Part shown: positions 16,670 through 23,827 of the stretch, in pieces
Position numbering within the stretch: position 1 is the first letter of the stretch
Layout of the letters: every line of letters begins with the position of its first letter
Origin: an uncultured Elusimicrobia bacterium
GTDB taxonomy: Bacteria; Elusimicrobiota; Elusimicrobia; UBA1565; UBA9628
NCBI GenBank assembly: GCA_903881545.1
Contig: CAIRTQ010000066.1
Span: 1-32,985 of the forward strand
Direction: 5' to 3'
Length of the DNA stretch: 32,985 bases
Notes under the pieces: generated by a model
What the model was told of the DNA's origin: nothing
The model's input: only the letters and a program-made list of their open reading frames with translations
The model's database searches: none
Program-made: the position numbers and the translations under genes

Positions 16670-17779
16670 ATGCGCAGGAACATCCGAGATGATCGTCATG
16701 CCCTGGGGCGAACCCGCGACGAGGCGATGTTCCCGACGCCACCGACGCGTTCCCGATTACCTTCGGGCTATGCCGGGATATTGCGGGATCTCAAGCAGCG
16801 CATCCAGCAAGAGCGCCTGCGCACGGTCATGGCCGCCAATACCGCGATGGCTATGCTCTACTGGGACATCGGACGGACTATCCTTGAGCGCCAGGCTCGC
16901 AAAGGCTGGGGCGCGCGCGTTATAGACCGCCTCTCAGCTGACCTCCGAAAAACCTTTCCCGACATGCGCGGCCGCTCGCCCCGAAACCTCAAGTACATGC
17001 GCGCTTTCGCCACCGCCTGGCCGCAGCGGGGAATCGTGCAACGGGTCGTTGCACAAATCCCTTGGCGGCAAAATATCGCCCTGCTGGAACGGCTGGGACA
17101 TCCCGAAACCCGCCTATGGTACGCGCAACAAGCCGTCCAAAACGGGTGGTCCCAGCCGATCTTATGCCTTCAAATCGAGAATCGGGCGCACGAGCGGCAG
17201 GGCAAGGCCGTCACGAATTTCCCCACCGTCCTGCCGTCGGCCGCATCCGACATGGCGGCGCAGGTGTTTAAGGACCCTTATCTTTTCGACTTCCTGGGAA
17301 CGGCGGACCCGCGCCGGGAACGCGAGGTCGAACAAGCGCTGGTGGATCACATCCAGCATTTCCTGCTTGAACTCGGGGCGGGCTTTGCATTCATGGGCCG
17401 CCAGGTGCATCTGGAAGTGGGCGCCCGCGATTATTATCTCGACTTACTGTTCTATCATGTCAAGCTGAGGCGTTACGTGGTGGTCGAACTCAAGGCGGCC
17501 TCGTTCGATGCCGCTTTTGTCGGGCAGATGAACCTGTATCTCTCCGCCGTGGATGACCTGCTCCGTCACCCGGACGACCAGCCCACGATCGGTCTGCTCC
17601 TATGCAAGGAGAAGGACAGACTCACGGTGGAGTATGCCCTGCGCGACTTGCGCAAGCCGATCGGCGTGGCGCAATGGCGAACACGCCTGGCCGAATCCCT
17701 GCCCAAACGCCTGCAAGAAAGTCTGCCGTCAATCGAAGAACTTGAGGCCGAGCTAGGAAAACGGCACGACGGCAATTAA
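16670..17779 (+). CDS. DUF1016 / YhcG-type PDDEXK nuclease
   Basis: The 369-residue protein has the two-part layout of the YhcG family. The N-terminal DUF1016 helical domain includes YWDIGRTILERQARKGWGAR and GRSPRNLKYMRAFA, with the NIALLERL and RLWYAQQAVQNGWSQ segments after it. The C-terminal PD-(D/E)XK domain has the catalytic pattern DYYLDLLFYH...YVVVELKA, with a QMNLYLSAVDD helix behind it. These proteins are found near restriction-modification and other mobile loci, often alone. Here no methylase or other partner is adjacent. The ATG at 16670 has AGAAGG upstream; ATG 16727 would trim 19 residues. Confidence 0.9.
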   Translation: MRRNIRDDRHALGRTRDEAMFPTPPTRSRLPSGYAGILRDLKQRIQQERLRTVMAANTAMAMLYWDIGRTILERQARKGWGARVIDRLSADLRKTFPDMRGRSPRNLKYMRAFATAWPQRGIVQRVVAQIPWRQNIALLERLGHPETRLWYAQQAVQNGWSQPILCLQIENRAHERQGKAVTNFPTVLPSAASDMAAQVFKDPYLFDFLGTADPRREREVEQALVDHIQHFLLELGAGFAFMGRQVHLEVGARDYYLDLLFYHVKLRRYVVVELKAASFDAAFVGQMNLYLSAVDDLLRHPDDQPTIGLLLCKEKDRLTVEYALRDLRKPIGVAQWRTRLAESLPKRLQESLPSIEELEAELGKRHDGN

Positions 17780-17790
17780 AAAAGGTTCCC

Positions 17791-18171
17791 CTACTCCCCA
17801 ACCACCGCCACCGCCTCAATCTCCACCGCCGCGCCCCGCGGCAGAGCCGCGGCCTGCACCGTCGCCCGGGCCGGACACGGAGTCGGGAAGGATTTCGCGT
17901 AGACCTCGTTCATGACCGCGAACTGCCCCAGGTCCGTCATGAAAACCGTGGTCTTCACCACGTCCTTCATGCCCAAGCCCGCCGCGGCCAAAATCGCCGC
18001 CACATTCCTCAGGCAAGCCTCGGTCTGCAAAGCCACGCCCTCCGGCATGGCCTTGCCCGCCGGGTCCAAGGGCAGTTGCCCCGAGACGAAGACCAAGTTC
18101 CCGGCCCGGATGGCCTGGGAATATGGCCCGATAGCCTGCGGCGCTCCGGAAGTCTGGATGGCCGTCTTCAT
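17791..18171 (-). CDS. ridA: RidA-family enamine/imine deaminase
   Basis: The 126-residue trimeric RidA/YjgF/UK114 protein hydrolyses reactive enamine and imine intermediates such as 2-aminoacrylate. The family signature PARATVQAAALPRGAAVEIEA near the C terminus contains the substrate-binding Arg, and GPYSQAIRAGNLVFVSGQLP near the N terminus is intact. Its start overlaps the rho stop (ATGA), so it is the last gene of the long minus-strand run, ending 11 bases from the convergent YhcG gene. No terminator hairpin is obvious between them. Confidence 0.93.
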   Translation of the reverse strand: MKTAIQTSGAPQAIGPYSQAIRAGNLVFVSGQLPLDPAGKAMPEGVALQTEACLRNVAAILAAAGLGMKDVVKTTVFMTDLGQFAVMNEVYAKSFPTPCPARATVQAAALPRGAAVEIEAVAVVGE

Positions 18172-19358
18172 TTGAGCGAGGCCAGCAGGGCCTTGTTGGT
18201 CTTATAGGTCATGAGCAGTTCGTGCATCGCCTTGGTCGCGTCCATCTCGCCCAAAGGCGCCAGGTGCCGGCGCAGTTTGAAGACCCCCTCCAAGATATCC
18301 GGCGGCAGGAGCTTCTCCTCCTTGCGGGTGCCCGTGTCACGAATCTTGAGCGCCGGGAAGATGCGCGCCTCGGCCGCGGAGCGGAACAGCACCAGCTCCA
18401 TGTTGCCAGTGCCCTTGAACTCCTGGAAGATGATGTCGTCCATGCGGCTGCCAGTATCTACCAGGATGGAGGCGATGATGGTCAAAGACCCCCCCTCCTC
18501 CAGCTTGCGCGCCGCGCCGAAGAAACGACGCGGGATCTCCATGGCCCGCGAGTCCAGGCCGCCGCTCATGGTCCGGTTGCCCACCGCGAACTGGTTGTGC
18601 ACCCGTGCCAGGCGCGTGAGCGAGTCCAGCAGGATCAGCACATCGGCGCCCTGCGCCGCCGCCGAAATGGCCGCGCGCATCAGGCCCTCGGCCACCTCCC
18701 GGTGCCGCTCGTAGGACTGGTCGCTCGACGAGGCCCAGACCTCGGCCGGCACGCTGCGCTTGAAGTCCGTCACCTCCTCCGGCCGCTCGTCGACGAGCAG
18801 GCAGAACTGCTTGATCGCCGGCTCCACGCCGTAGACCGCGTTGGAGATCTGCTTGAGGAAGGTCGTCTTGCCGGCCTTGGGCGGCGAGACGATCAGGCCC
18901 CGCGTGCCCTTGCCGATCGGGCTGAGCAGGTCGAGGGCGCGCATGGACGGGTCGGTCGAGCCCTTCTCCAGGCAGATCCACTGGTGCGGATCCACCGGAG
19001 TCTTCGCCATGAAAGCGACTTCGTCGGCGGTGCGCTGAGGACCGGACGGCGCGCGGGGCGCGACATTACCCTGATTGCCGTTGTTCTCCTGGGGCCGCCG
19101 CTGCTGCTGCTGCTGCCGGTTGTCGAAGCGGCGCCTGCGGTCGCGGTACCGGACATGCCGTCCACCACCGTGGCCACCTTGGCCGCCATGGTGTCCACCC
19201 TGACGACCACCCTGGCCGCCTTGGTCGCCACCCTGGCCACCGCCCTGGTTACTGCCCTGGCTGCCACCTTGGCCGCCACCCTGGTTGCCGCCCTGGTTGG
19301 CTCCTTGGTCGCCGCCCTGGTTACCGCCTTGTCCGCCCGACCGCTCTTCGTTCATCAT
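18168..19358 (-). CDS. rho: Transcription termination factor Rho lacking the OB-fold domain
   Basis: The 396-residue protein has a complete Rho ATPase/translocase core from about residue 122: LSPIGKGTRGLIV, Walker A SPPKAGKTT, VLILLDSLTRLARVHN, the Q-loop stretch SGGLDSRA, RRFFGAARKLEEGGSLTIIA and the R-loop FKGTGNMEL. Upstream of the core there is no Rho-N helix domain and no cold-shock (OB) RNA-binding fold. Instead residues about 7-66 are Gly/Gln/Asn-rich repeats (GGNQGGDQGANQGG), followed by Arg/Gln-rich HVRYRDRRRRFDNRQQQQQRR and a short spacer. The tail is in frame and starts at ATGATG with an AGGAGAGG site. It could still bind RNA through the Arg-rich part or promote assembly. Whether a normal second Rho exists elsewhere is unknown. 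Confidence 0.93.
   Translation of the reverse strand: MMNEERSGGQGGNQGGDQGANQGGNQGGGQGGSQGSNQGGGQGGDQGGQGGRQGGHHGGQGGHGGGRHVRYRDRRRRFDNRQQQQQRRPQENNGNQGNVAPRAPSGPQRTADEVAFMAKTPVDPHQWICLEKGSTDPSMRALDLLSPIGKGTRGLIVSPPKAGKTTFLKQISNAVYGVEPAIKQFCLLVDERPEEVTDFKRSVPAEVWASSSDQSYERHREVAEGLMRAAISAAAQGADVLILLDSLTRLARVHNQFAVGNRTMSGGLDSRAMEIPRRFFGAARKLEEGGSLTIIASILVDTGSRMDDIIFQEFKGTGNMELVLFRSAAEARIFPALKIRDTGTRKEEKLLPPDILEGVFKLRRHLAPLGEMDATKAMHELLMTYKTNKALLASLK
19165..19340. repeat. Tandem Gly-Gly-Gln/Asn codon repeats in rho
   Basis: The 5' part of rho is built of variants of a short unit (CAGGGCGGCAACCAGGGCGG on the coding strand) encoding GG(N/D/S/G)Q. The degenerate tandem array makes length variation by slippage likely. 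Confidence 0.7.
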
Positions 19359-19410: not shown

Positions 19411-20211
19411 TCAATCGAACGCGTGCAGCTCCGCCGTTCCGGACCGCAGGCCCAAAAGGCGCCGCGCCAGCCGACTGAAACGCTTGGGATCGTCCGAGAC
19501 AAAGAATTTCTGCCGGCCCCGGCCCTGCCGACGGCGCAGTTCCAGGTTTTCCAACAGGCTCTCAGTCTCCCGGGCCACCGCGTCGGCGGAATCGATGAGC
19601 CGCACCGAGGGGCCCATGACCCGGCGCACCACCCCCTTGAGCAGAGGATAGTGCGTGCAACCCAAAATCAAAGTGTCTATGTCCGTGCGCCGCAAGCCCG
19701 CCAGATAGTGGCGCGCCGCCAGCAAGGTCGCGGGATGGCCCCACCAGCCCTCTTCCACCAAGGGCACGAACAGGGGGCAGGCCAAGGACTCCACCCGCAC
19801 TCCCGGCCGCCGCGCCCGCAGGGCCGCGGCGTAGGCGCCCGAAGCGATCGTGGCTTCGGTGCCGATGATGCCCACATGGCCGTTGCGCGTGGCGGCGGCG
19901 GCGGCATTGGCCCCCGGCAGGATCACGCCCAGCACCGGCACGTCGATGGCGCGCGCCACCGCGTCCAGGGCGAGGGCCGAGGAGGTATTGCAGGCCACCA
20001 CCAAAGCCTTGACCCCGCGCGCGGCCAGAAAGCGCGCCACCTCCAGGGAATAGCGCGTCACCGTGGCGCCGGACTTGGAACCGTAGGGCACATGCGCCGT
20101 GTCGCCGAAATAGATCACGTCCTCCTCGGGCATGCGGCGGATGACCGCCTTGAGCACGGTCAAGCCTCCGATGCCGGAGTCGAAGATGCCGATGGGAGCG
20201 TTGGCCTTCAT
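19411..20211 (-). CDS. murI: Glutamate racemase
   Basis: The 266-residue cytoplasmic enzyme makes D-glutamate for peptidoglycan. The family motifs are intact: IGIFDSGIGGLTVLK, the first catalytic Cys in VVACNTSSALAL, and the second in LILGCTHYPLL, with VIYFGDTAHVPYG between. Its start overlaps the amidase stop (ATGA), so it is co-translated with a peptidoglycan hydrolase. Fifty-two bases separate it from rho. Confidence 0.96.
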   Translation of the reverse strand: MKANAPIGIFDSGIGGLTVLKAVIRRMPEEDVIYFGDTAHVPYGSKSGATVTRYSLEVARFLAARGVKALVVACNTSSALALDAVARAIDVPVLGVILPGANAAAAATRNGHVGIIGTEATIASGAYAAALRARRPGVRVESLACPLFVPLVEEGWWGHPATLLAARHYLAGLRRTDIDTLILGCTHYPLLKGVVRRVMGPSVRLIDSADAVARETESLLENLELRRRQGRGRQKFFVSDDPKRFSRLARRLLGLRSGTAELHAFD

Positions 20212-21764
20212 CCCTTGCTCCGGCTCTGGGCTGGGTCCAGCCAGCCCTGGCGCTTGGCGTAATCCAGGAGCCCCGCGTAGACGCCGTCCAGCAAGCGGCG
20301 GCGGTAGGCCTGAGTGCCCAGCTTGGCCTGGTCGCGGCGGTTGGTCACGAAGCCCATCTCCACCAGGATCGCGGGCGCGTCCGTGCCGCGCAAAACATAG
20401 AAGGCCGCCTGCTTGACCCCGCGGGGGGTCAGGTCCACGCGCTTGCCCAGATCGCGGGAGACCAAGGCGGCCAATTCCGCCGAGGCATTGATGTTCTCGG
20501 TCTTGGACATGGCCCGCAGGATGAGGGCCGCCTCCTCGTCCGCCGGGGACTTTCCCTCCAGCTCCAGGGAGGCGTTCTCGGCCTCGGCTAGGCGCGCGGC
20601 CTCCGGATCAGTGGCGTTCTCCGATACGGAATAGACCTCGAAGCCGTGCTCCTTGCGGTTGCGGTTGGCGTTGCAGTGCAGGGACACGAAGATATCGGCG
20701 CGCGCGTCGTTGGCCATCCGGGAGCGCTCTGCCAGGGGCACGAAGGTATCGTCGCCGCGGGTCAGGATCACGTCAAAGGTCTTCTCCTCGCGCAGGACCT
20801 GGGCCAACTCCAGCGCCGCGGTCAGGTTGAGGTCCTTCTCCCGCGCGCGGCGGCCGCCCAAGGCCCCGGGATCCTTGCCGCCGTGCCCCGCGTCGATGAC
20901 GATGCGGCGCCGCTGCGGAACCGACGCTTCCGAAGTCGGTGGAGGCGGGGCCTGCACCGCCTGCGCAGCAGGCAGTGCAGGTGCCGCTGGCGCAAGCGCC
21001 AGCGGCGCAGGCACGGCCGCAACCCTGTCCCCTGCCCCAGCCAAAATCTCCACGGCCAGACGGCGCGGCTCGGAGAACTCCCGCACCCGCCACCCGAGCC
21101 CCGGCCGGGCGAAGCGCACGCTGAGGTGAGCCCCCCTGGCGTCCTGGCTCAGGGTGTAGCTCTGCACCAAGCCATCGCCCACCACGGCCTGCTCCGGCGC
21201 ATCGATGACGCCGAAAGGCAGGCTAAGATCCACGGCCTGCACGCCCCGCGCCGCCGCGGCATGCCCCAGGGGCTTCTTGAGCTCCAGGACGACCCGCGTG
21301 AATTCCTGATAGGAGAACCAATGCACGGACCCGAGGTTGCCGCGCCGCTCCACGGTGAGCAGCATGTTGCCCTCATCGAACCGGCTCTCCATCCCCGAGA
21401 AGGCCGTGAATTCGGCCCCCAGGAAGAAAGACAGCGGGACAAAGGCCTCGGCGGAGCGCAGCACGGGCGGCGCTTCCAGCGCCGCCTTGCGCCCAGCCAG
21501 CAGGGCCTCGCCCGAACCGATCACCAGCTGTAGCAGCCGCCCCCGGAAGCTCAGCTGCACCCGCCCGGAGATGGGATACCAGTAGGCCTGGCCGCCGTAG
21601 AGCTCCCCCGCCTGCTTGGCGCTGACGAAGGTCCGGCCGTCGGAGCGATAAGCCGCCAGCGAGTCGTGGGAGCGTCCGGAGACCACCACCTGGATCTCCT
21701 CGCCTCCCGCCGCCGCAGGGGCCAGAACCGCCAAGGCCAACGACAAGAAGAGGGCTTTGTTCAT
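20208..21764 (-). CDS. N-acetylmuramoyl-L-alanine amidase with stalk domain
   Basis: The 518-residue exported enzyme cleaves the bond between MurNAc and the stem peptide. A signal peptide (MNKALFLSLALAVLAPAAAGG) leads to a region like the copper-amine-oxidase N-terminal stalk domain (GRTFVSAKQAGELYGG, EAFVPLSFFLGAEF). An AMIN-like beta stretch, a Pro/Ala linker at about 255-290 and a C-terminal Amidase_3 domain follow. That domain has the zinc ligands in IVIDAGHGGKDPGA, REKDLNL and SLHCNAN and the catalytic Glu in ILVEMGFVTN. The start at 21764 overlaps the RNase E/G stop (ATGA). The far longer frame that runs through the RNase gene is an artefact of high GC. A role in cell separation fits the mre/mrdA neighbourhood. 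Confidence 0.93.
   Translation of the reverse strand: MNKALFLSLALAVLAPAAAGGEEIQVVVSGRSHDSLAAYRSDGRTFVSAKQAGELYGGQAYWYPISGRVQLSFRGRLLQLVIGSGEALLAGRKAALEAPPVLRSAEAFVPLSFFLGAEFTAFSGMESRFDEGNMLLTVERRGNLGSVHWFSYQEFTRVVLELKKPLGHAAAARGVQAVDLSLPFGVIDAPEQAVVGDGLVQSYTLSQDARGAHLSVRFARPGLGWRVREFSEPRRLAVEILAGAGDRVAAVPAPLALAPAAPALPAAQAVQAPPPPTSEASVPQRRRIVIDAGHGGKDPGALGGRRAREKDLNLTAALELAQVLREEKTFDVILTRGDDTFVPLAERSRMANDARADIFVSLHCNANRNRKEHGFEVYSVSENATDPEAARLAEAENASLELEGKSPADEEAALILRAMSKTENINASAELAALVSRDLGKRVDLTPRGVKQAAFYVLRGTDAPAILVEMGFVTNRRDQAKLGTQAYRRRLLDGVYAGLLDYAKRQGWLDPAQSRSKG
20959..21006. repeat. Two GC-rich palindromes in amidase linker
   Basis: GCCTGC-GCA-GCAGGC (20959-20973) and GCCGCTGGCGC-AA-GCGCCAGCGGC (20983-21006, perfect 11-base arms) lie side by side in the Pro/Ala linker. 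They are separated by AGTGCAGGT. Both belong to the same type as the copies in the RNase E/G gene. Confidence 0.65.
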
Positions 21765-23827
21765 TCTAGGACGATGCGGTACTCCTCCCAAGGCAGCGAA
21801 GGCTCGCTCTGTATCTTGACCGAGCGGCCCACATTTTTTTCGATGAACACCTGCTGGGCCCGGAAGATGTCCGACAGGGCGGGATGCAGCAGGAGGCGCA
21901 GGTTGCCGCCGGGGCGGCCGCCCGTCATCCGCAGGATCTCCCTCTGGATGCGGATGCGCAGGGTCTCGCTGGAGAGCACCCGGCCGCAGCCCTTGCACTG
22001 CTGACATTCCTCGGTGATGAGGCTCACCGTGGACTCCCGCTTGCGCTCGCGGGTCAGCTCGACGAGGCCCAGGCGGGTGATGGGCAGGATGCGGATCTTG
22101 GCCCGGTCGCCCCGGCAGGAACGAGTGAAGGCTTCCATGACCTTCTGCCGGTTGGAGGCTTTGCGCATGTCGATGAAATCGACCACGATGATGCCGCCGA
22201 TGTTGCGCAGGCGCAGCTGGTGGGCGACCTCCAGAGCGGCCTCGATGTTGGTCTGGGTGACGGTCTCCTCCTGCGACTTGGAGCCGGTGAAGCGGCCGGT
22301 GTTGACGTCGATGGCGCAGAGTGACTCGGCCTCCTGGATGATGATGGAGCCGCCGTTGGGCAAGGCCACCTTGGTGCGCCGCATATCCTCGATGTCGCCC
22401 TCCAGATGGAAGGCCTGGAACAGCGGGGTCTTGGCGTCGTAAAGGCGCACGCGGTCCTTGAGCTCCGGGGAGATGGCCTCCACGAACTCCAGCACGCCGC
22501 GGTACTGCTCCGCGTTGTCCAGCAGGTAGACATAGACCTGGTCGGAGAGCAAGTCCCGCGCCACCTGCAGGGCGAGGTCCAGATCCTTGTGCAGCAGTGC
22601 GGGCGCCGGGGTTTCCTCGAACTTCTTCTGGATCTGGTTCCAGGTCTGCAGGAGGTATTTGACCTCGCGCTCCAGGTCGGCCTCCGAGGCCCCTTCGGCC
22701 TCGGTGCGCACGACCAGGCCCTTGCCGCCCAGGTATTCGGCCACCAGCCGGTCCACGATCCCGGCCAGCCGGGTGCGCTCGGCCGCGTCGCCGATCTGCT
22801 TGGAGATGCCGACATAGCCCTGCAGAGGCGTGAAGACCAGGTAGCGGCCGGGCAAGGAGATGTCCATGGTCACCTTCATGCCCTTGGTGCCGATGGCCTC
22901 CTTGGCCACCTGGATCATGATGTTCTGCCCCTTCTTGAGCGTGGCGTCGATGGCGGCGCCCTTCTCGCCCAGGACGTCGGAGATGTAGAGGTAGGCGTTC
23001 TTTTCGAAGCCGATGTTGACGAAGGCCGAGGAGATGCCGGGCAGGACATTCTCGACTTCGCCCTTGTAGATGTTGCCCACGATGTACTGGCTGCCGCGGC
23101 GCTCCCAAAGGAGCTCGGCCAGCCGGCCGTCATCGACGATGGCGATGCGCGTCTCTTCGAAACTGGTGTTGGCCATTATCTCGCGCTTGACCGCGACGGG
23201 CGATGCGTGGCGGTCGCTGCGGAACTCGCGCTCGGCCCCGCTGCGATGGCCCTCGCCGCCCCGGCGGTCGCGGTCCCGATCGCGCTCGCGCCGCGGCTCG
23301 CGCTCACCACGTGCGGCATCGCTACGCGCAACATCGCCGCGCGCGGCCTCGCCGCCCCGGCCGCGACGGTTACGGCCACGCCCGTCGTTACGCCCCTGCC
23401 CTTGGCCCGGCTGGCGATGGTGCGGCGCCGGCCGCTGCGGGGCCTGCGCCCCAGGCGCAGGTGCAGGCCTCTGCGGTCCGGCCGCCGCCGGCGCCGAAGG
23501 CGCCACGGGCGCCGCGGGCGCCGGACCCTCGTCGACCTCGCATTCGTCCTGGGAGCCGGCGTCCTCCGCGTCTCCGGCCTGCGCTGCAAGCGCAGGTGCC
23601 GCCTGATATTCTTCCGGCTCCGGTTCCTGCTCCTGCGCCAGAAGCGCCTGCGCTGCAATCATCTGCGCCGAAGGCGCAGATGCCACGGCCGCGTCCGCCC
23701 GCGGATACTCCTCACGCCGGGCGGCCTGTGCATCCTCCTGCGCCTGTGGCGCAGGCGTCTGCGCTGCAGGCGCAGGTGCCACGGGCTCCGGAGTCGTCTG
23801 CATCAATTCTTTCTCTTCGTTTGCCAT
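21761..23827 (-). CDS. Ribonuclease E/G with long disordered N terminus
   Basis: This 688-residue endoribonuclease acts in mRNA decay and rRNA processing. Residues about 1-215 are low complexity: an Ala/Pro/Gln/Glu part, then an Arg/Asp/Gly part (RREPRRERDRDRDRRGGEGH type). The catalytic region follows. The S1 domain begins near GSQYIVGNIYKGEVENVLPG, the DNase-I-like active site has AIDVNTGRF and VVDFIDM (metal-binding Asp), and the zinc-link CQQC is near residue 606. In E. coli RNase E the disordered scaffold is C-terminal; here it is N-terminal. An internal ATG at 23176 (MANTSFEE) could give a short RNase G-like form, but its ribosome-binding site is weak, while ATG 23827 has GAGAGG. Position next to mre genes matches rng (cafA) in proteobacteria. 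Confidence 0.93.
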   Translation of the reverse strand: MANEEKELMQTTPEPVAPAPAAQTPAPQAQEDAQAARREEYPRADAAVASAPSAQMIAAQALLAQEQEPEPEEYQAAPALAAQAGDAEDAGSQDECEVDEGPAPAAPVAPSAPAAAGPQRPAPAPGAQAPQRPAPHHRQPGQGQGRNDGRGRNRRGRGGEAARGDVARSDAARGEREPRRERDRDRDRRGGEGHRSGAEREFRSDRHASPVAVKREIMANTSFEETRIAIVDDGRLAELLWERRGSQYIVGNIYKGEVENVLPGISSAFVNIGFEKNAYLYISDVLGEKGAAIDATLKKGQNIMIQVAKEAIGTKGMKVTMDISLPGRYLVFTPLQGYVGISKQIGDAAERTRLAGIVDRLVAEYLGGKGLVVRTEAEGASEADLEREVKYLLQTWNQIQKKFEETPAPALLHKDLDLALQVARDLLSDQVYVYLLDNAEQYRGVLEFVEAISPELKDRVRLYDAKTPLFQAFHLEGDIEDMRRTKVALPNGGSIIIQEAESLCAIDVNTGRFTGSKSQEETVTQTNIEAALEVAHQLRLRNIGGIIVVDFIDMRKASNRQKVMEAFTRSCRGDRAKIRILPITRLGLVELTRERKRESTVSLITEECQQCKGCGRVLSSETLRIRIQREILRMTGGRPGGNLRLLLHPALSDIFRAQQVFIEKNVGRSVKIQSEPSLPWEEYRIVLE
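23444..23775. repeat. Cluster of seven GC-rich palindromes in RNase E/G linker
   Basis: Copies lie at 23444-23460 (CTGCGCC-CCA-GGCGCAG), 23490-23504 (GGCGCC-GAA-GGCGCC), 23579-23595 (CTGCGCT-GCA-AGCGCAG), 23643-23654, 23661-23681 (ATCTGCGCC/GGCGCAGAT around GAA), 23737-23755 (CCTGCGCC/GGCGCAGG around TGT) and 23759-23775 (one G-T wobble). Three are followed by a (G/A)TGCC tail. On the coding strand most read GCG CCT NNN GCG CAG, giving A-P-x-A-Q, in one constant phase. Confidence 0.7.

Follow-up and report, generated by a model that had tools for sequence, protein, structure and literature searches.

Canonical Rho captures C-rich RNA with its OB domains and then threads it into the channel of its motor, and most discussions treat it as a single protein in each cell. 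An ancient line of Rho paralogues also exists in several phyla. The NCBIfam family NF041509 (paralog_Rho2, 'Rho, short form') and the Rho2 proteins of Desulfobacterales, Calditrichota, Planctomycetota and Verrucomicrobiota are, like the protein described here, second Rho proteins that accompany a canonical one (in all 13 of the genomes examined). Rho2 proteins of other phyla are its nearest relatives outside Elusimicrobiota, and the helix bundle was likewise not found in them; however, 24 of the 25 sampled keep the OB domain, which our protein lacks. Second Rho paralogues are already known as a kind, and the OB-less version is a new variation. A biased, unstructured N-terminal segment such as the one found here is also present in the Rho of Mycobacterium, Micrococcus and Bacteroides, where, according to the respective reports, it binds RNA or condenses; in Mycobacterium and Bacteroides, however, the same reports describe the segment as an insert, with the cold-shock domain kept. 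In an excerpt of PMC4167861, an N-terminal fragment of the mycobacterial protein that includes a stretch rich in Arg, Asp, Asn and Gly binds RNA in the absence of the canonical sites, although its binding of poly-dC80 is poor. For Bacteroides Rho, a commentary (PMC10284900) reports that the inserted disordered region drives condensation under stress. The N-terminal domain of E. coli Rho, finally, bears residues that contact RNA polymerase (PMC8828861, in excerpt). Our survey of the open-access literature, by title and start of the abstract, returned nothing on an OB-less Rho or a short Rho paralogue, which is weak evidence of absence. An OB-less Rho beside a canonical Rho is a natural experiment on the motor alone, and it bears on whether translocation can be uncoupled from rut recognition and on how a disordered tail might assume the task of capturing RNA.

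The protein is encoded in a stretch of 32,985 nucleotides of an uncultured Elusimicrobia bacterium (contig CAIRTQ010000066.1), which as a whole is termed the window. The gene, termed rho2, and its parts are:

18168..19358, minus strand: rho2, an OB-less (motor-only) Rho paralogue of 396 aa (open reading frame, translation, Pfam and NCBIfam profiles).
18168..19031, minus strand: Rho motor (RecA-like ATPase), residues 110-396 (Pfam, AlphaFold2, Foldseek).
18558..18596, minus strand: Q-loop region (residues 255-267), with one residue fewer than the E. coli loop (alignment).
18861..18884, minus strand: Walker A motif PPKAGKTT, residues 159-166 (translation, alignment).
19044..19358, minus strand: tail without predicted structure, residues 1-105 (AlphaFold2 pLDDT, no secondary structure).
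19089..19160, minus strand: Arg/Gln-rich patch RHVRYRDRRRRFDNRQQQQQRRPQ, residues 67-90 (translation).
19165..19338, minus strand: imperfect tandem repeats with periods of 9, 12, 24, 33 and 36, coding for GGxQGG-like repeats (Tandem Repeats Finder).

Reading frame, coordinates and strand agree with those given in the earlier note on this DNA. The open frame has 400 codons and murI ends 52 bases upstream of rho2; thus, no longer, OB-containing reading of the gene is possible. The ATPase domain PF00006, at residues 139-339, is the sole Pfam match above the curated cut-off, and neither the OB/cold-shock domain Rho_RNA_bind (PF07497) nor the Rho_N helix bundle (PF07498) matched the window protein at E<=1. 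In the AlphaFold2 model, built on an alignment of 39 sequences, there is no helix or strand ahead of residue 111, and pLDDT is 42-52 per ten-residue block over residues 1-100, with a block mean of 65 for residues 101-110. Most blocks of the motor exceed 90, the minimum being 66 at residues 261-270 in the Q-loop. The window Rho2 is a Rho with a complete motor, without helix bundle and without OB domain, just as the earlier note had held. A divergent OB fold at residues 66-120, a possibility which that note had raised, is contradicted by the missing secondary structure, and a hidden OB fold was rejected on the combined evidence of the Pfam searches of the window protein and its relatives, the PF07497 genome scans described below, and AlphaFold2.

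Compared with canonical Rho (TIGR00767/NF006886; E. coli Rho, PDB 1pv4, 3ice, 8q3n), Rho2 shares the whole motor and the catalytic residues, but it lacks the helix bundle and the OB primary site, has a shorter Q-loop and carries an unstructured Arg-rich tail. The best Foldseek match of the window protein is Rho 8q3n (E 6.6e-35, 47% identity over 285 columns), and the best 50 matches listed are all Rho structures. It scores 350.1 bits against the Rho profile NF006886, above the cut-off of 315, and 331.2 bits against TIGR00767, below the cut-off of 509.45. A flagellar or secretion ATPase was rejected as its identity (FliI clade 1 profile, 64 bits vs a cut-off of 619.1). Against NF041509 it reaches 279.8 bits, below the cut-off of 628; the one other-phylum Rho2 for which we have a score (L037) also stays below it, with 363.1 bits. 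The first position of the profile aligns with the start of the OB domain in L037, and the window Rho2 has no such domain. Both the presence of a further rho gene in addition to the canonical one and the absence of the helix bundle, the two traits which we inferred for NF041509 from the name of the family, are true of the window protein.

The motor itself is of the Rho-type RecA kind, with Walker A, catalytic Glu and Arg finger. All 36 aligned Elusimicrobiota Rho2 rows are identical at K184, T185, E211, R212, D265, S266, R269, R272, K336, G337, R353 and R366 (E. coli numbering), which we take to be catalytic or RNA-channel residues. The R-loop presumably corresponds to about DTGSR, residues 301-305 of the window protein; KGTGNMEL, previously labelled as the R-loop, would lie just downstream of it. 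At E. coli position 279 the Q-loop is gapped in the window protein and in 31 of the 36 aligned Elusimicrobiota Rho2, and Thr replaces V284 in 35 of the 36, so that RNA handling by Rho2 may differ or be weak. The dN/dS ratio of the window rho2 against five relatives is 0.079-0.134, and two other Rho2 pairs gave 0.070 and 0.247, the latter being the more distant pair; four pairs of canonical Rho gave 0.051-0.125. Judged by these ratios, rho2 is under purifying selection, and from its residues the motor looks active.

The genome that contains the window (2.94 Mb in 158 contigs, 93% complete) has four ATP-synt_ab matches, rho2 among them. Its sole PF07497 match (E 4.3e-33) is a different Rho of 451 aa on another contig, C104. 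That rho2 would be the only Rho of this genome was therefore rejected, and the suggestion that it is a second Rho is borne out by this OB-bearing canonical Rho. The motors of the two proteins are 49% identical. A protein search (best match E <= 5.4e-97) found the Rho2 paralogue in at least 36 of 247 Elusimicrobiota genomes; at most seven candidates were scored per genome, which makes all counts lower bounds. Rho2 was present in 24 of 24 genomes of the window's own family (f1), in 4/4 of f2, 2/2 of f8, 1/1 of f9 and 1/1 of f11, and in at least 1/3 of f5, 1/3 of f6 and 2/3 of f7; in the other families there was none at E <= 5.4e-97. The next genome beyond this limit (G012, 9.3e-88) yielded a canonical Rho when its gene was fetched. 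A second Rho in G205 and G208, missed by the search, was revealed by the OB-domain scan.

None of the 36 Rho2 genomes has a PF07497 match on the Rho2 contig, even at E<=1, and 34 of them have one above the cut-off on another contig. In the 35th (G069) the canonical Rho was split by the assembly, with pieces at two contig ends. For G173 (91% complete; loci L117 and L191) a canonical Rho was sought and none was seen, the only Rho found being OB-less, and this genome bears on whether a cell can live with a motor-only Rho alone. The 36 Rho2 genomes and the 36 aligned Rho2 rows are different, overlapping sets. Moreover, PF07497 and PF07498 were absent among the best 25 of 34 Pfam families listed for 35 OB-less proteins (33 from Elusimicrobiota and two from Hydrogenedentota), a result compatible with a PF07497 match of E-value above 0.028 in one member.

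We placed the proteins in a phylogenetic tree of 99 motor-domain rows, inferred by a quick method with SH-aLRT support and without bootstrap; the tree is unrooted. It includes 30 of the 49 non-Elusimicrobiota loci found, further fetched loci not being entered, and omits L013, L018, L020, L022, L023, L026, L028, L029, L031, L032 and L148. The 33 canonical Rho rows (21 from Elusimicrobiota and 12 others, including E. coli) lie on one side of a branch with SH-aLRT 99, and the 36 Elusimicrobiota Rho2 rows on one side of another with SH-aLRT 98. Neighbours of the latter are the Rho2 of Calditrichota, Caldisericota and Desulfobacterota (SH-aLRT 84). Each of the 13 genomes reached via such loci contains one Rho that matches nearly the whole TIGR00767 profile (above the cut-off in 12 of 13) and a second one whose match begins only at profile position 30-131.

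Among the Rho2 of other phyla, PF07497 was found at E<=0.01 in 24 of 25 and PF07498 in none of the 25. Rho2 with an OB domain occur in Planctomycetota, Verrucomicrobiota, Desulfobacterota and Calditrichota, with a canonical Rho alongside in the genomes examined. A very divergent second Rho of Cloacimonadota (L083, 2716-3798), with an odd N-terminal region and an end branch of about 1.75 in the tree, is perhaps the single one of the 25 missing PF07497. We compared five positions which we take to be primary-site residues of E. coli Rho. Position E108, a less certain column since the nearby loop is gapped in the alignment, is Glu in one of 26 Rho2 OB domains vs 30 of 31 canonical Rho. At position Y110 the 26 have either Asn (14) or Gly (12), and 30 of the 31 have Tyr or Phe. 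Of the 26 Rho2 OB domains, 23 retain R66 and 21 retain D78, and 25 have a Tyr or Phe at position Y80. These counts omit L047 and L050, which have no OB domain, as well as L056 and L057, whose starts are unsure, and lack L136 and L137. The primary site of the other-phylum Rho2 thus appears to be changed, not gone, and as R66 and D78 are kept, those proteins may still bind RNA at the OB domain.

In two Hydrogenedentota genomes (L047, L050) Rho2 is also without an OB domain. Like the window protein, it has a canonical-type Rho in the same genome and, in L047, an Arg-rich start; AlphaFold2 gives residues 1-51 of L047 a pLDDT mostly <50 and shows no structure ahead of residue 58. It differs in that it sits elsewhere in the tree, apart from the Elusimicrobiota Rho2, and in that a glmS-like gene lies directly upstream in both loci. 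One shared clade was not rejected (p-AU 0.354) in a constrained test of 76 rows, which included 17 of the 36 Elusimicrobiota Rho2 and left out L083, L147, L146 and L078. The OB domain may have been lost twice, in Elusimicrobiota and in Hydrogenedentota. Along the Rho2 line, we infer from the sequences a probable order of loss, namely the helix bundle, then part of the primary site and then, in these lineages, the whole OB domain, although an unrooted tree does not fix this order.

The tail of the window protein reaches a maximum of 6 Arg per 10 residues, and 25 of 36 Rho2 tails contain a 10-residue stretch with 5 or more Arg. In composition, the 36 tails (2123 residues) are G 31%, Q 18%, R 15% and N 7%, with Lys at 0.4% and Ala at 1.8%; Ala makes up 9.5% of the motors. 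High G+C content favours Arg over Lys, and the motors of the same genes served as the control for this effect: R:K is 316:9 in the tails vs 836:668 in the motors. Over the 34 of 36 rows listed, tail length is 1-111 residues (median 70) and net charge 0 to +17 (median +8). The tail starts for all these counts were chosen with a pattern list; tails of 0-1 residue (L117, L118, L122, L123) come from trimming at a set distance from Walker A, and the start is unsure in L117 and L123, which have longer open frames upstream, and in L030, which is truncated at the 5' end. In 19 canonical Elusimicrobiota Rho, the N-terminal extensions are Ala-rich (15%) and mostly of charge -3 to +4; one reaches +13, and its start is doubtful.

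The open frames at loci L122 and L118 encode just 304 and 313 aa, and almost nothing precedes the motor. An Arg-rich tail is therefore no universal replacement of the OB domain. The earlier idea that the tail stands in for the OB domain fits most relatives, whose tails are Arg-rich, but not these two, and while the tail is located at the N-terminus of the window protein, comparison with the N-termini of relatives shows that it is not a constant feature of the family. The Gly/Gln tail is an elaboration of this lineage, and what is constant in the family is the lost OB domain rather than the tail.

The reading we prefer, with a probability of roughly 0.5, is that Rho2 would be a long-conserved motor-only ring that threads RNA without a rut-type site and serves as an auxiliary translocase or helicase, loaded by the tail where there is one. 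Such a protein would form a Rho-type ring and hydrolyse ATP, and RNA would be pulled through the central channel, the secondary site. Without the C-specific primary site it would pick no rut sites and might act on exposed RNA. Where present, the Arg-rich, Lys-poor tail could gather RNA non-specifically and deliver it to the open ring; tail-less members would load via the channel itself or via a partner. Tail loading is plausible because the mycobacterial N-terminal fragment binds RNA without the canonical sites, but it would not be general, as the tails differ widely in length and all but vanish in some members. The invariant motor residues, the low dN/dS, the well-supported Rho2 clade, the R:K bias of the tails and the altered E108 and Y110 positions in other Rho2 speak for the preferred reading; the changed Q-loop, the poor poly-dC80 binding of the mycobacterial fragment, the R66 and D78 retained in other Rho2 and the ratio of 0.247 in one Rho2 pair speak against it. 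Since the RNA polymerase contacts sit in the missing N-terminal domain, Rho2 is more likely auxiliary than a replacement of the canonical terminator. The apparent lack of a canonical Rho in G173, if real, fits a purely auxiliary role poorly.

A bolder form of this reading, which we put forward tentatively and at less than even odds, makes Rho2 a natural rut-independent Rho: a motor-only ring without primary site or polymerase-docking domain, with a job separate from termination, loaded by its tail or directly at the channel, and with a possible double loss of the OB domain. The job might be the clearing of untranslated RNA, R-loops or decay intermediates, and the remaining OB domains of the paralogue line would already be without part of the primary site.

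Alternatively, Rho2 and canonical Rho could share mixed hexamers, with fewer primary sites and fewer RNA-polymerase contacts per ring, which would tune termination. The identity of their motors in the window genome and the OB-bearing Rho found, whole or split, in 35 of the 36 Rho2 genomes speak for such rings, as do R366 and R269, which are kept in the aligned rows of both groups and which we take to act across the subunit border. However, the two proteins form deeply separated groups in the tree and G173 shows no canonical Rho, and we consider mixed rings rather unlikely.

The genes around rho2 bear on a role in RNA decay. Those of the same-strand run are:

17791..18171, minus strand: ridA (Ribonuc_L-PSP), with a 4-base overlap with rho2, a frequent downstream neighbour (profile and relatives' loci).
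19411..20211, minus strand: murI-like racemase gene, a frequent upstream neighbour (profile and relatives' loci).
About 20208-21764, minus strand: amidase gene (profile and relatives' loci).
21761..23827, minus strand: RNase E/G family gene (rng), further up the run (PF10150, 6.5e-94).

The run rng-amidase-murI-rho2-ridA is common in the f1 loci whose flank extends far enough, L025/L130 being without murI and ridA. Synteny was counted over loci L006-L036, leaving out L082, which is cut inside rho2; ridA matches at most 42 bases after rho2 in 28 of these 31 loci, the exceptions being L009, which ends at rho2, L035, with ridA 1.4 kb on, and L025, with none. Rho2 could thus be the RNA-unwinding helicase of a decay complex with the RNase E/G of the same run. 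As precedent, an excerpt of PMC5472812 describes an association of Rho with the Caulobacter RNase E degradosome that increases at low temperature, and cites Rho as a degradosome component in R. capsulatus. We nevertheless regard this role as fairly improbable. Of the 11 genes that neighbour rho2 in the window, none, not even RNase E/G, was found within the 3-4 kb flanks of rho2 in L116 and L118-L123, from other Elusimicrobiota families, or in either Hydrogenedentota locus, and L117 and the other-phylum loci have none of the 11 in their flanks either. The neighbour proteins scanned in such loci likewise included none of them. The synteny is confined to one family and hence reads as vertical inheritance rather than as a functional partner. 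An rng gene beside mreBCD is, moreover, a common bacterial arrangement, so that its link to rho2 may be accidental.

The tail might, by analogy, mainly drive condensation, storing or switching Rho2 under stress. Its Gly/Gln/Asn/Arg composition and the Bacteroides precedent would agree with this; aromatic residues, however, are few (0-6 per tail) and several members have a very short tail or none, which makes this explanation distinctly unlikely. Low-complexity repeats can misassemble, but an assembly artefact, local deletion or decaying copy, the first two of which the earlier note had considered, is contradicted and very unlikely, as the same architecture recurs in many other assemblies (at least 36 of 247 genomes of the phylum, in a clade with SH-aLRT 98), the catalytic residues are intact and dN/dS is well below 1.

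A partner of Rho2 was sought among the neighbours. The 20 neighbour proteins scanned include no shared RNA-binding partner, and nothing recurs among them besides the glmS-like gene (Hydrogenedentota) and DUF5677 (f1, L007). An open frame of about 190-240 aa lies between murI and rho2 in L007 (2140-2724, plus strand), with similar-looking frames in L009, L010, L024 and L027, and is absent from the window; in the one case scanned, L007, it is DUF5677. As DUF5677 is not an OB protein and the window has no room for such a frame, a separately encoded OB partner beside rho2 was rejected. A second NusG as partner was rejected as well, since a single NusG was found in the window genome.

Three further observations concern the flanking genes. 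A listed 966-aa open frame at 20208-23108 on the minus strand of the window is a TTG-start frame through part of the RNase E/G gene. A YhcG-type PDDEXK nuclease gene (DUF1016_N and YhcG_C; 16670-17779, plus strand) converges on the rho2-ridA run; it had no tblastn match in the loci of other genomes and may therefore have been inserted recently. The glmS-like gene of the Hydrogenedentota (SIS and glutamine amidotransferase; L047, 947-2782; L050, 1124-2953) has a 4-base overlap with the start of the OB-less rho2.
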